From NCBI GenBank assembly GCA_009192285.1, contig CM018608.1, positions 886,201 to 950,200 on the forward strand: a DNA stretch of 64,000 nucleotides, in the 5' to 3' direction. Shown here piece after piece: positions 18,177 to 23,400 of the stretch (positions within the stretch are counted from its first letter, which is position 1; every line of letters begins with the position of its first letter). The notes under the pieces were generated by a model. It saw only the letters and a list, made by a program, of their open reading frames with translations, made no database searches and was not told where the DNA came from. The stretch comes from Morchella semilibera. Taxonomy: Eukaryota > Ascomycota > Pezizomycetes > Pezizales > Morchellaceae. The position numbers and the translations under genes were made by a program.

Positions 18177-19102
18177 TATAGTCGTATGGTGTATGTGGTG
18201 TAAATGCCGGGTATTGCTCCTTTTCAGTGCTTGTGTTTGGGACCTATGTGATACGATCTAAGACTATTTATTGTTATAAGCATGGTCGATTTCCTTTTCA
18301 AGTTCGCGCGATCTCTTTCAAGCACCTGGGCATAGATAGGCTAAAAGTAAATAAAGTACTTTGAATTCAAGCGCAGATCATGAAAAAAGGGGAAGATGTG
18401 ATCCTGTTGAATGACGTTAAAAAGGGACACCTTGTTAGCTTAGGAATAGACGCGATGTGAGGATCTTCATACATGTAATTAAGGTTTACTCTACACTAGC
18501 GCTCCAGGGTCGCAGGGTGATCTACAGATTTGCAAGATATAAACTTCCCATCCACAACCACCTTAATCAGCCCAAGTATAAGTAAATTTAGACAGACATA
18601 TCTCCACCCACCTCTATGCAATACGCAAACCATGGCAACCAGAATCGGGGCTCAAGTGCTCTCAGTCCATCTTGCCTTGGATGTACAGCGACAGGTAATA
18701 AGTGATGGAACGCCCTGAGGTACAAACACCAAATGTTGGTGGCGTTTTACCAAAACAGGCATCACTGTGTTCCATCACTTATTACCTACCGCTGTACAGT
18801 GGGCAGATGCTTTTGAGCAGAGGGGTATCGGTCAATGAGACAATTGGTTTCATCTTCTTTTGAAGAGGCTTGATCAATCTCCAACTAATTTCAACTCAAA
18901 AGACACAGATGATTCTCATCGAACAATAGTAACGGGACTATATGATACCAATATATTGTGTAGATACATGTACAACGAATACATGTATTGAATCATATGG
19001 GAAGTGTCAATGGACAAAGAAAGGCCAATCCCCTCAGTAAATCTCGATTCAATCCAATCAACACCAAGCCTCTAGATACTATGCGCTTGTCGGAGTTGCA
19101 GC
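18177..19102. other. Spacer between two small genes
   Basis: No gene is supported here. The interval contains the TIR element at 18682-18798 and otherwise unremarkable AT-rich sequence. Confidence 0.45.
18682..18798. mobile_element. Short TIR mini-element, about 116 bp
   Basis: TGTACAGCGACAGGTAATAA then GTGATGGAAC at the left is matched in inverse orientation by the right end ending at 18798, with only the GA/GT difference after CAGCG. The near-perfect arms of about 30 bp surround a core of about 55 bp, so the whole unit could fold into one hairpin. TA lies at both ends (18684-18685 and 18795-18796). There is no coding capacity. Confidence 0.7.
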
Positions 19103-19540
19103 TTAGATGGCGTCAGGGCACATATATCTTGTGTCTACATCACACCCAACTCATCAATATATCTCTCGAGTCTCAAACATAATAGGGGACATATTTTTAC
19201 TTACCACATTCCATTGTACAGATACAGCTTGTTCCGTAAGGGCAATTTCTAACACAATCGTTTGTACATCCACACTGGCACTCGTATTTTGGATCTAAAA
19301 GGTTTCTCAGTACCTACACCTCGTTATCTACGGATGGGAATACCTACCACAGTTCTTAGGGCAATTACAGCTTCCTCCATAATAACAACCAACAAGGCAG
19401 TCGTTAAAACACCCACATGAAGGAAGATAAATGCCATCCCGTGCAACGAGCTCAGTGGCACCAGTAGTATCCACGGGGGTTCCGACACAGAGGCCGATGA
19501 ACATGGCGACGAGAAATAGTGCTAAAGTCTTGAAATTCAT
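19103..19540 (-). CDS. Small secreted cysteine-rich protein with duplicated 23-residue module
   Basis: Candidate secreted protein of unknown function, 96 aa in the two-exon reading. Exon 1 (19540-19348) encodes a signal peptide (hydrophobic L-A-L-F-L-V-A-M-F) and a first Cys module. After a 53-nt intron, exon 2 (19294-19197) encodes a second module and then stops in G-K-stop. Both modules follow one pattern, C-G-C-x-N-D-C-x3-C-x-Y-G-x-S-C-x-C-x3-C, with identical spacing. Each exon ends in TGT-G followed by GT, in the same phase, so the second exon looks like a duplicate of the first. The second donor is a perfect GTAAGT. If used, a 32-nt third exon (19134-19103) adds ten residues before a stop. 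Mature chain: 15 Cys or more. A TATATAAA box lies at 19641-19648. The CXC pairs could mean metal binding or a disulfide knot; no family recognised. Confidence 0.7.
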
Positions 19541-19640: not shown

Positions 19641-19648
19641 TTTATATA
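19641..19648 (-). promoter_or_regulatory. TATA box of the cysteine-rich secreted protein gene
   Basis: On the minus strand the sequence reads TATATAAA, about 100 nt upstream of the ATG at 19540. The spacing fits a transcription start 30 to 40 nt downstream and a leader of about 60 nt with a CT-rich stretch. A strong TATA box is typical of inducible small-protein genes in fungi. Confidence 0.55.
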
Positions 19649-19916: not shown

Positions 19917-20080
19917 TTAATTACTAGCTTTATTCTATCACCCGAGAATGTCGCACATGTACTACAGCTTGGCCAGCTGATTGAACACGCCGGCAGTTAC
20001 TCTGTCCAATTACAGAAAACAGGAGAAAGAGATACCAAGAGCCCAGTCTTAGATAGCTCATTATGACCACGTTCCGTTCG

Positions 20081-20224
20081 TATTTGAGAGTTTTAGCTCC
20101 GCCAACTGAACAGAAAGTCAGCTGTTTTAGGCAAAGACTTACAAAGATTTAGCCAATAAGAGGTATAGGACTTCCTGTCCAAGTGCTCGACTTACTGTCC
20201 AACTCGTGTAGCTAAAACTCTCTA
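20081..20224. mobile_element. Imperfect TIR mini-element with GAGAGTTTTAGCT ends
   Basis: The left end, GAGAGTTTTAGCT then an AACTG-ACAG segment, is matched on the other strand of the right end by GAGAGTTTTAGCT then TTGG-ACAG. Perfect terminal arms of 13 bp continue imperfectly for about 34 bp. TA dinucleotides flank the unit (20081-20082 and 20223-20224). It is about 140 bp, with no open frame. Confidence 0.55.
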
Positions 20225-20244
20225 TCTAGCTAAACACTTATAAT

Positions 20245-20402
20245 TAGGGCCCGTTTGGCGGTTTTTGTGTTATAAAACCGTTATGCAATGGCTCCGCTAG
20301 GCAAGTTCATGAAAAAGTCAAACTACAGTACCTTGTACTTTTCAAAAAACCCCGTTTGAGGGCCTTAACGGAGTCTCAAACTTAGTTGTCCGAACGCTCC
20401 TA
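20245..20402. mobile_element. Possible TIR mini-element adjacent to the previous one
   Basis: The left end GGGCCCGTTTGGCGG resembles the inverse of the right end (GGAGCGTTCGGACAA), with TA at 20245-20246 and 20401-20402. The match is about 70 percent over 15 bases, so this is weak. The interior contains further GTTTG and CCGTT inverted stretches. It could be a diverged hAT-like or TA-flanked element or chance. Confidence 0.3.
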
Positions 20403-23400
20403 TATAGAGTTATAAAAAGAAAAGGAGAAGGAGAAGCAGATCAGTTATCCCGTTGCCATACAAGTTTCCCGTTTTGCTTAAACAACCAGTGAACATCAAC
20501 GACCGAGCTGCACGTGTTCTATCCCATACCCTCGCACCCCTGAGATGTGACATCAATGCTGCAAAGGTATTTTTGGCATCAACTGCTGAGACATGGCTGA
20601 CATGATAAAACCACATTAACATACTGATAAGTGAGGAATGCAGTTTTATTAATTAAGGGCATTACAGCCTAGAGTAGCGTACATACATGTATGTACTATG
20701 TACATTGGTCCATGTAACCAACCCGTACACCAGGGCCCCCACCTATACGAGGCCTATTACTTCACTTTCTAGGTCACAAAGTCCACTTTGTGGGGAATTA
20801 AATTATGTTCCCGAGGCAAAGTCGGGTGCGGGTACCCTAAATACCTATTCTACCCCATGTAATGTACCTACATGTACAGATAGGTACTATATGGTACTCA
20901 AACCTGGTCGCACGATTCCTAGCTCGCATAACAGTTTTTCGTCCCCGCACCGTAAAGTACGTGACATCAACGCTAGCGCACGTTTTTGTCACGCGTGTAC
21001 ATATGGTCCCAACCATCAATTTAGAGTTTTGAGGGATATTTTGGGTTTGCTGGGAGGGCTGTTGTGGGGCGACAAGAGGGAACGCACGGGGGAGGGGGTA
21101 AAAGGGTGGAGTTGTGCAACCGCGGATGTGGATGAAGAGAGTATTCTGCAAGGGGGAGATAAGGCTGCAATAAACAACGGAAGTCGGAGATCCGCTGCAA
21201 CAACTCGAGTTCAACGTTGTTGTTGTTGTGTTGTTTTTGTCGCCAATACCAGTTGGTCCCACCAGAAACTGAATTAAACTCGATTACCTACATGTACTTT
21301 ATGTGGGTTATATTGTAGGTACTCTACATACATGTATTTACCCCTGGGCCGCGGTGTGCACTGGCACTGATTATCAGTTTGTCGTCGTTTAATATATGAA
21401 AAAGTTCCCATAAGGCTTTATGCAAGTGCAGTCCCCATTGACAGTGCAGCTCGGGGAGCACGTATTTTGACTCTTGATCTGCACACACTAGTTACTCCAC
21501 ATTACTCTTTCTATAAAATTTAAATTGGTAGCAATATATTTCTGATCTCGTGAGAGACGTGAAAACGAGGTGATCTCCATGGTTCAATTGCAATCAACAA
21601 GGGGGCTATCTACATGTACCTGTACAATATGTATGTAGCTGGTCGATGAGGAATTAATAAATTAATTGCGACATAGCCTACCGCAGGTCACCATAACCCC
21701 ACACGCGGGGAACAGTGTGGAGAAATAGACTTGGGTCACGGATTGGGGTTTGGGAGCTTAGACCCGGCCAGTTTAATTTATTCGTGAAACGATGGGGCGG
21801 GGCGAGTGATTTTCCGTGATTACTTGGAAGGAATTACACCCCCTCTACCCAAGTCCGACTAATATTAATCCAGAAATTAAACTAGAGTAACTGCTCGTTC
21901 CTTCACCTATACTAGGGTTGTAGTACGTGCGTTGATAGTATACACAGTTGTGTTTTATATGCTCACAATAAATCAATCTACAGCGAGAGTACGTATACAG
22001 CGTGGCAGTGTAATACAGAATTGCAAGGAAGTGCATACTATCTATTATATTGCTAGGGCTTAAAACCTAATGCTTGGCTCCAAGTCTTTAATATTTGAGG
22101 GATTCGGGGTTCGGGGGAACGGATTAAATGATTCGGAGACCGTGTTGCCCGGAACACTAATATCAAATGAATTACAAATTATGGGTTGAGACAGTTTCAA
22201 GTTGCCGTTTACCGAGCCTGTAGTACCGGTTGAACTGATGATCTACTAGTGAAGGATACACAACCACAACACACATACCTAGCCCCCCGCTTGTTCAGTC
22301 TTAACTAAGATCCTACAACCTTGAAAAGACATACGAGATGATATATATATTCTTACATGAGACCGTAGAAGACCGAGATATAATTTCTTAGATATGCATG
22401 TAATTAGAAACTCTCACCTGATTCCCTACATGTACGTAGGCATATAACACCGCAATATTGAATTCAGGAGATATGTTATAGTACAAGAAAGGGAAAAAAA
22501 ACAGGTTAAAATTCAGGGATGGTGAGGATGTTTCTCCGGGCCGAGCCCCTGATATTCTACAACGCGTATTAATTGTAAACCTGGATAAAGCACCTGTAGT
22601 ACTGGCATCTAGATCTACGCGAATAGGTACGCATGTGCTCCAGCTCTAAGCTTTACTTGACATATAATACTGATAATAATATCACATGTATATATGCACG
22701 CGCGTGTACGTACAGTATATAATATTGCTCCGTTCAGATTCGGGGCCATTCAGGGGTTTGTGCATGCATGCGCACATAAAAATCAGTCTGACTCAGCTAA
22801 TATAGTCAATCCACCTGCTGGATGGTTAGATTTACTAATTACGTCCAAGCCTGGCTCGTCTACTCTACTTTTTGTACTGTGCGCTCGATCAAAGTTATAA
22901 GACAGTTAATTCAATGATGAGAGATACGGGAAATCCTGGTCAAGAAGTATACTACATATGAAGTAATTGTCCAAGCACGGAAATTTTTTCCCCTCAAATC
23001 TTCAAAGCAAAGACCTGGGAGCCGTAATACGTACATACATACAACTTACTTACTTATATTTTCAATGCACATGCAGACTTTAGCGATCGACCTCGGGCAA
23101 CATGTACATTGTACGTTATACAAGTTATACACATGTGCACGTAGATTGAGTCCCCGGGTACATGTAGACATGTACATGTAGTTTATGTACATACATGTAG
23201 ATGTACTAGAAACGTCAAGTATGTAATTTACATGTATGTATATACAAGACTACATGTAGAGTATAAGATTGTTTACACGCATATGTCCACTGATATATAC
23301 ATTTGATCAAGTAAGATTTAGATACACACACTGAAGAATACATGGCAGTGCAGTTTACAGAGTAGAAGTTACGTAAATCAACAGATACCACGCAGCACGT

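Follow-up and report, generated by a model that had tools for sequence, protein, structure and literature searches.

The minus strand between positions 19540 and 19103 of a 64,000-nt window of Morchella semilibera DNA (the whole stretch that was analysed) reads as a three-exon gene, matching the span given in the first-pass annotation exactly, and we give a probability of roughly 55% to the interpretation that it encodes an orphan small secreted cysteine-rich protein that grew by an old duplication of a 30-residue phase-1 exon unit. The protein predicted from the three-exon form comprises 104 residues and 17 cysteines, of which one lies inside the signal-peptide-like region and 16 follow it. 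The features of the gene model are as follows:

19641..19648, minus strand: TATA-box-like TATATAAA, 108 nt upstream of the ATG, called on a consensus match only
19348..19540, minus strand: exon 1, 193 nt, with the ATG at 19540, a signal-peptide-like start, then a short stretch that ends in LVAR, then module 1
19349..19438, minus strand: module 1, 30 residues, DGIYLPSCGCFNDCLVGCYYGGSCNCPKNC, with its 23-residue core at 19349-19417
19295..19347, minus strand: intron 1, 53 nt, GTAGGT...TTTTAG, phase 1
19205..19294, minus strand: exon 2, 90 nt, which is module 2, DPKYECQCGCTNDCVRNCPYGTSCICTMEC, phase 1 at both ends, with its core at 19206-19274
19135..19204, minus strand: predicted intron 2, 70 nt, GTAAGT...GTAG, phase 1
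19103..19134, minus strand: predicted exon 3, 32 nt including the stop, DTRYMCPDAI-stop, interpreted as a third module cut off after its start

The TATA box had been proposed from the sequence earlier, and the consensus match at 19648-19641 agrees with that proposal. Predicted intron 2 carries a YTRAY branch site (TTGAT) 19 nt before its end. The YTRAY consensus is absent from intron 1, where only CTGAG is found, and this weakens the three-exon explanation.

At its core, the locus contains a duplicated cysteine module, under coding constraint, within a frame that has intact splice-like sites. Two copies of the seven-cysteine spacing C-x-C-x3-C-x3-C-x5-C-x-C-x3-C, and no others, are present in the window (19417-19349 and 19274-19206), whereas 40 first-order Markov shuffles of it yielded none, which argues for the three-exon explanation. 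The two 23-residue cores are identical at 13 of 23 residues, and the six identities among the 16 non-cysteine positions exceed expectation when the cysteines are held fixed (permutation p = 0.0004), such that the earlier claim of consecutive exons sharing one spacing pattern is well founded. Along with the cysteines, an Asn-Asp, a Tyr-Gly and a Ser are kept between the modules. As had also been described, both modules end in the same manner and in the same phase: module 1 closes with TGTG followed by the donor GTAGGT, and module 2 with TGTG followed by GTAAGT, each in phase 1. The 23-residue length proposed for the module holds for the core pattern only, as the repeat unit, measured from the phase-1 boundary, extends to 30 residues (90 nt) with 15 of 30 identical. 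This register is gap-free, whereas the MAFFT alignments inserted a gap, and the extension is weaker than the core because D and Y alone are shared among the seven residues it adds N-terminal to it. That both units are 90 nt long, in phase 1 and aligned without a gap supports the three-exon explanation, and, with a third exon whose start resembles that of exon 2, upholds the proposed exon duplication.

The duplication of the module looks old and under constraint rather than recent. Comparison of the two 23-codon cores gives a pS of 0.747 and a pN of 0.295, values drawn from a small sample of 12.5 synonymous sites, and 6 of the 13 shared residues use different synonymous codons. Since pS is near saturation and pN is not, the modules are constrained coding sequence, and the same comparison lends support to the three-exon explanation. 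The recent birth suggested in the first-pass annotation is not supported by these values, and we rejected a recent duplication given the near saturation of synonymous sites.

The third exon bears on where the gene ends. Among 16 CAG or TAG acceptors lying 40-900 nt downstream of GTAAGT, none opens a full cysteine module, and the acceptor at 19135 yields DTRYMCPDAI-stop. The start of this exon, D-T-R-Y-M-C (D-x-R-Y-x-C), resembles that of exon 2, D-P-K-Y-E-C-Q (D-x-K-Y-x-C), which favours use of the GTAAGT donor (19204-19199), adds support to the three-exon explanation, and suggests that exon 3 is a vestigial, truncated third module. Over seven residues, a score as high as that of this likeness arose in 0.0002, 0.0022 and 0.0076 of 5000 shuffles with acceptors allowed within 140, 300 and 900 nt, fractions that flatter the likeness because it was seen before it was tested. 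The three-exon explanation is accordingly weakened by a likeness that is short (six or seven residues) and was tested post hoc. It is further weakened because modules 1 and 2 reach a score of just 2 across these seven initial residues, and module 1 against exon 3 just 6, and because the DNA from exon 3 onwards resembles exon 2 and module 1 no better than chance (0.14 and 0.85 of 500 shuffles scored as high, respectively). In its favour, the cysteines that follow the signal peptide are even in number (16) in the three-exon form, compared with 15 in the two-exon form.

In that two-exon form, exon 2 continues past 19205 into Gly-Lys-stop (19205-19197), giving a protein of 96 residues and 16 cysteines, 15 of them mature, that ends Cys-Gly-Lys-stop; GTAAGT at 19204 would remain unspliced, the likeness of exon 3 would be chance, and the product would otherwise be the same kind of secreted protein. 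This form reads the frame in the simplest way, without a second intron, and a distant exon-2 fragment, described below, keeps the in-frame stop while its donor has changed (GGCGAG for GGTAAG). However, it leaves an odd cysteine over, leaves unused a full GTAAGT donor that is homologous in place to the module 1 donor, and puts down to chance a likeness matched by only 0.0002-0.0076 of shuffles. We therefore place the three-exon form first and regard the two-exon form as a possible, clearly less probable, second.

The N-terminus of the predicted protein has a hydrophobic core, with a 9-residue mean that exceeds 2.0 in the windows beginning at residues 5-13, and this hydrophobicity also counts towards the three-exon explanation. 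This core is compatible with the signal peptide proposed earlier, and entry of the gene product into the secretory pathway is predicted from it. According to the three-exon explanation, exon 1 would encode the signal peptide and module 1, with a short stretch between them that ends in LVAR; exon 2, a symmetric phase-1 exon of 90 nt, would supply module 2; and exon 3 would begin a third module that is cut short. The gene would have grown by duplicating its 30-residue phase-1 exon unit long enough ago for synonymous sites to near saturation. The signal peptide would direct the chain to the secretory pathway, where the leader before module 1 may be removed between R and D, with D opening module 1. 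The 16 cysteines that are left would pair as disulfides to give two linked compact modules, and the resulting stable protein might act outside the cell on a host or competitor.

The C-x-C pairs, present in both modules of a protein in which about one quarter of the mature residues are cysteine, could instead bind metal ions and form no disulfides, making the product a secreted chelator of the metallothionein type. A precedent comes from rust haustoria, where small secreted metallothioneins are expressed according to the discussion section of one paper (PMC2441471). Against such a role, no metallothionein model in Pfam matched at E 10, and a Tyr occupies the same place in both modules, with further Tyr and Phe residues elsewhere, whereas classical metallothioneins are not known to contain aromatic residues. 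The secretory pathway is moreover oxidising. We consider a chelator very unlikely.

Pfam, NCBIfam, PDB, viral and prokaryote searches used the two-exon protein form and/or its exons and modules as queries. At E 10, Pfam returned no family for the protein or for either exon; NCBIfam gave no match; PDB, searched by sequence and by a two-row profile, gave chance-level matches only; and none of 6 pattern matches in viral contigs and 52 in prokaryote contigs was confirmed. The protein is thus an orphan, by which we mean that it is without a relative in Pfam, NCBIfam, PDB, and the viral and prokaryote contigs, in agreement with the first-pass annotation, which recognised no family. The exon-2 fragment alone gave one Pfam match, to a scorpion toxin model, at a chance-level E of 9.4 that is below the cut-off. 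Structure prediction of the two modules, which the first-pass annotation had called for, was carried out with AlphaFold2 on each module singly; mean pLDDT was 57.0 and 50.8, too weak to be informative or used, and the models contained one short helix at C-x3-C. In the literature, the motif strings of the module were not found in any paper, no paper was found that joins a fungal secreted protein, a cysteine-rich repeat and an exon, and papers on exon duplication together with fungal, cysteine-rich and secreted concerned animals only, as judged by title.

We then compared the protein with known classes. Both its size and cysteine content (104 residues with 17 cysteines, or 96 with 16) and its lack of a known domain (no Pfam family at E 10) fit the fungal small secreted cysteine-rich class. 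In the CS-alpha-beta defensin-like fold, a C-x3-C helix is tied to a C-x-C strand; the module has both C-x3-C and C-x-C, but the spacer of five residues between them looks short for this fold, and Pfam gave no defensin match at E 10. Granulin modules have adjacent Cys-Cys pairs, none of which occurs in the 104 residues. Kex2-processed repeat proteins have dibasic cleavage sites between their repeats, and KR, RR, KK and RK are likewise absent from the 104 residues.

The SSCRP/SCP class of fungi, of which Verticillium dahliae has over 100 members, the VdSCPs (PMC7170778), resembles the Morchella protein in being short and cysteine-rich, with a signal-peptide-like start and no recognised domain. 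Membership of that class follows from size and composition and implies no common descent, and the Morchella protein differs from it in being built of exon-sized modules. The nearest working parallel, and only a parallel, may be the nasonins of the wasp Nasonia vitripennis, which have tandem cysteine-rich domains with no protease sites between them, and of which nasonin-6 has one domain per exon and phase-1 introns, all as here (PMC2853521). Their domains are insect defensin-like, however, and the likeness is an analogy from which we claim no relationship. Progranulin is likewise secreted and consists of a series of cysteine-rich modules, gained or lost through exon duplication or loss, as may have happened here, and no granulin gene was detected in fungi (PMC4527844). 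A review of repeat-containing effectors mentions cysteine once, and in general terms (PMC4617103).

To the extent covered by our search of the 56.8-Mb genome (23 contigs, with the gene on contig C6), in which the whole protein in its two-exon form and each module served as queries, the best candidates scored comprised the two modules themselves and at least one fragment, at C6:1067751-1067829. A multi-copy family was rejected, as these whole-protein and single-module searches brought up only the two modules and one fragment among the best candidates. The fragment lies 162 kb from the gene, is about 78-79 bp long, and matches it at 71 of 79 columns with one gap, extending from inside exon 2 to 14 nt beyond the donor. 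Because it runs into intron 2, it is a piece of genomic DNA and does not decide how the gene is spliced. Relative to exon 2 it has 6 replacement changes and 1 synonymous change over 23 codons (dN 0.115, dS 0.082), and so looks to have changed at a near-neutral rate, as unconstrained DNA would. Its 4-kb surroundings contain nothing else that matches the gene significantly. A mobile element carrying the fragment was also rejected: the 43 matches to its 1.5-kb surroundings consisted of itself, exon 2, and 41 matches to a telomere-like tract that fell elsewhere in the query than the fragment. A short interstitial tract of the telomere-like repeat lies at C6:1068619-1068659, approximately 0.8 kb from the fragment.

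A genome with one intact locus and one fragment among its best candidates, a truncated third module, and neutral-looking changes in the fragment would also be expected if the locus were a relic, decayed or not expressed, of a gene formerly under constraint. The window copy nevertheless has its frame, splice-like sites, signal-like start and TATA-like box all intact, and we find a relic quite unlikely. The better-supported three-exon gene is real-looking and is an orphan of a common kind, set apart by being laid out exon by exon with a third unit cut short. Fungi commonly have small secreted cysteine-rich proteins that are orphans, and tracing how they arose is in most cases difficult. This gene seems to record one route of origin, in which a symmetric exon was duplicated and a third copy is truncated, and if relatives with other module numbers exist, module gain and loss would be directly traceable.

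A more speculative extension, which we think improbable, is that the modules represent a new disulfide family whose genes grow exon by exon, with each 90-nt phase-1 exon encoding one complete module and the letters at the last position reading as either Cys-Gly-Lys-stop or a GTAAGT donor. If so, a copied terminal exon would turn internal at once. Since retention of intron 1 gives a one-module product of 70 residues, splicing or intron retention could then choose among secreted forms of 70 (one-module), 96 (two-module) or 104 residues (two-module-plus-tail) from one gene.

The first-pass annotation had placed the gene by itself within a gene-poor zone. The interval from 15.4 to 41 kb contains 78 stop-to-stop ORFs with a length of 70 aa or more, and of the 24 compared with Pfam none matched above the curated cut-off and 4 had weak matches below it, in keeping with the gene-poor part of that description. 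The gene is not strictly alone, as the nearest candidate gene, a 98-codon ORF that is single copy in the genome, lies approximately 1 kb downstream (18176-17883, minus strand), with a 117-bp repeat in between. By eye, this ORF has two hydrophobic stretches, and a longer frame over it has a Pfam DUF412 match below cut-off. An ORF for a Fungal_trans regulator also lies near the gene and, together with the short introns, fits a filamentous fungus; a search for 5.8S rRNA gave a single match, below cut-off. A scan for bacterial-type promoters and terminators downstream of the gene returned nothing, a result that is uninformative here.

The intervening repeat is a MITE-like element of 117 bp with inverted ends (window 18682-18798). 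It occupies at least 40 places in the genome, including the window copy, at 89-100% identity, and is flanked by GTAC on both sides at all 10 loci read. A second short repeat, at window 20107-20225, recurs at 20 further places in the genome with 69-92% identity. The composite RIP index peaks in the 2-kb bin 20001-22000 (0.25, with every other bin at or below 0.01), perhaps reflecting mild repeat-induced point mutation in that bin.

In place of TTAGGG, contig ends carry telomere-like arrays of a 10-nt unit, TTAGTTAGGG. Among 44 of the 46 contig ends, at least 5 copies were counted in the last 300 bases at 26, 2 copies at 1, and none at 17, and TTAGGGTTAGGG occurred 0-3 times per contig end. Among the papers listed for this repeat, none concerned a fungal telomere, as judged by title. 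Finally, the contig pairs C9/C10, C12/C13 and C21/C22 have paired repeat matches at nearly equal offsets and identical outermost letters at their left ends, with C9/C10 and C12/C13 also near-equal in length, which suggests that the three pairs are allelic or duplicated contigs in the assembly.
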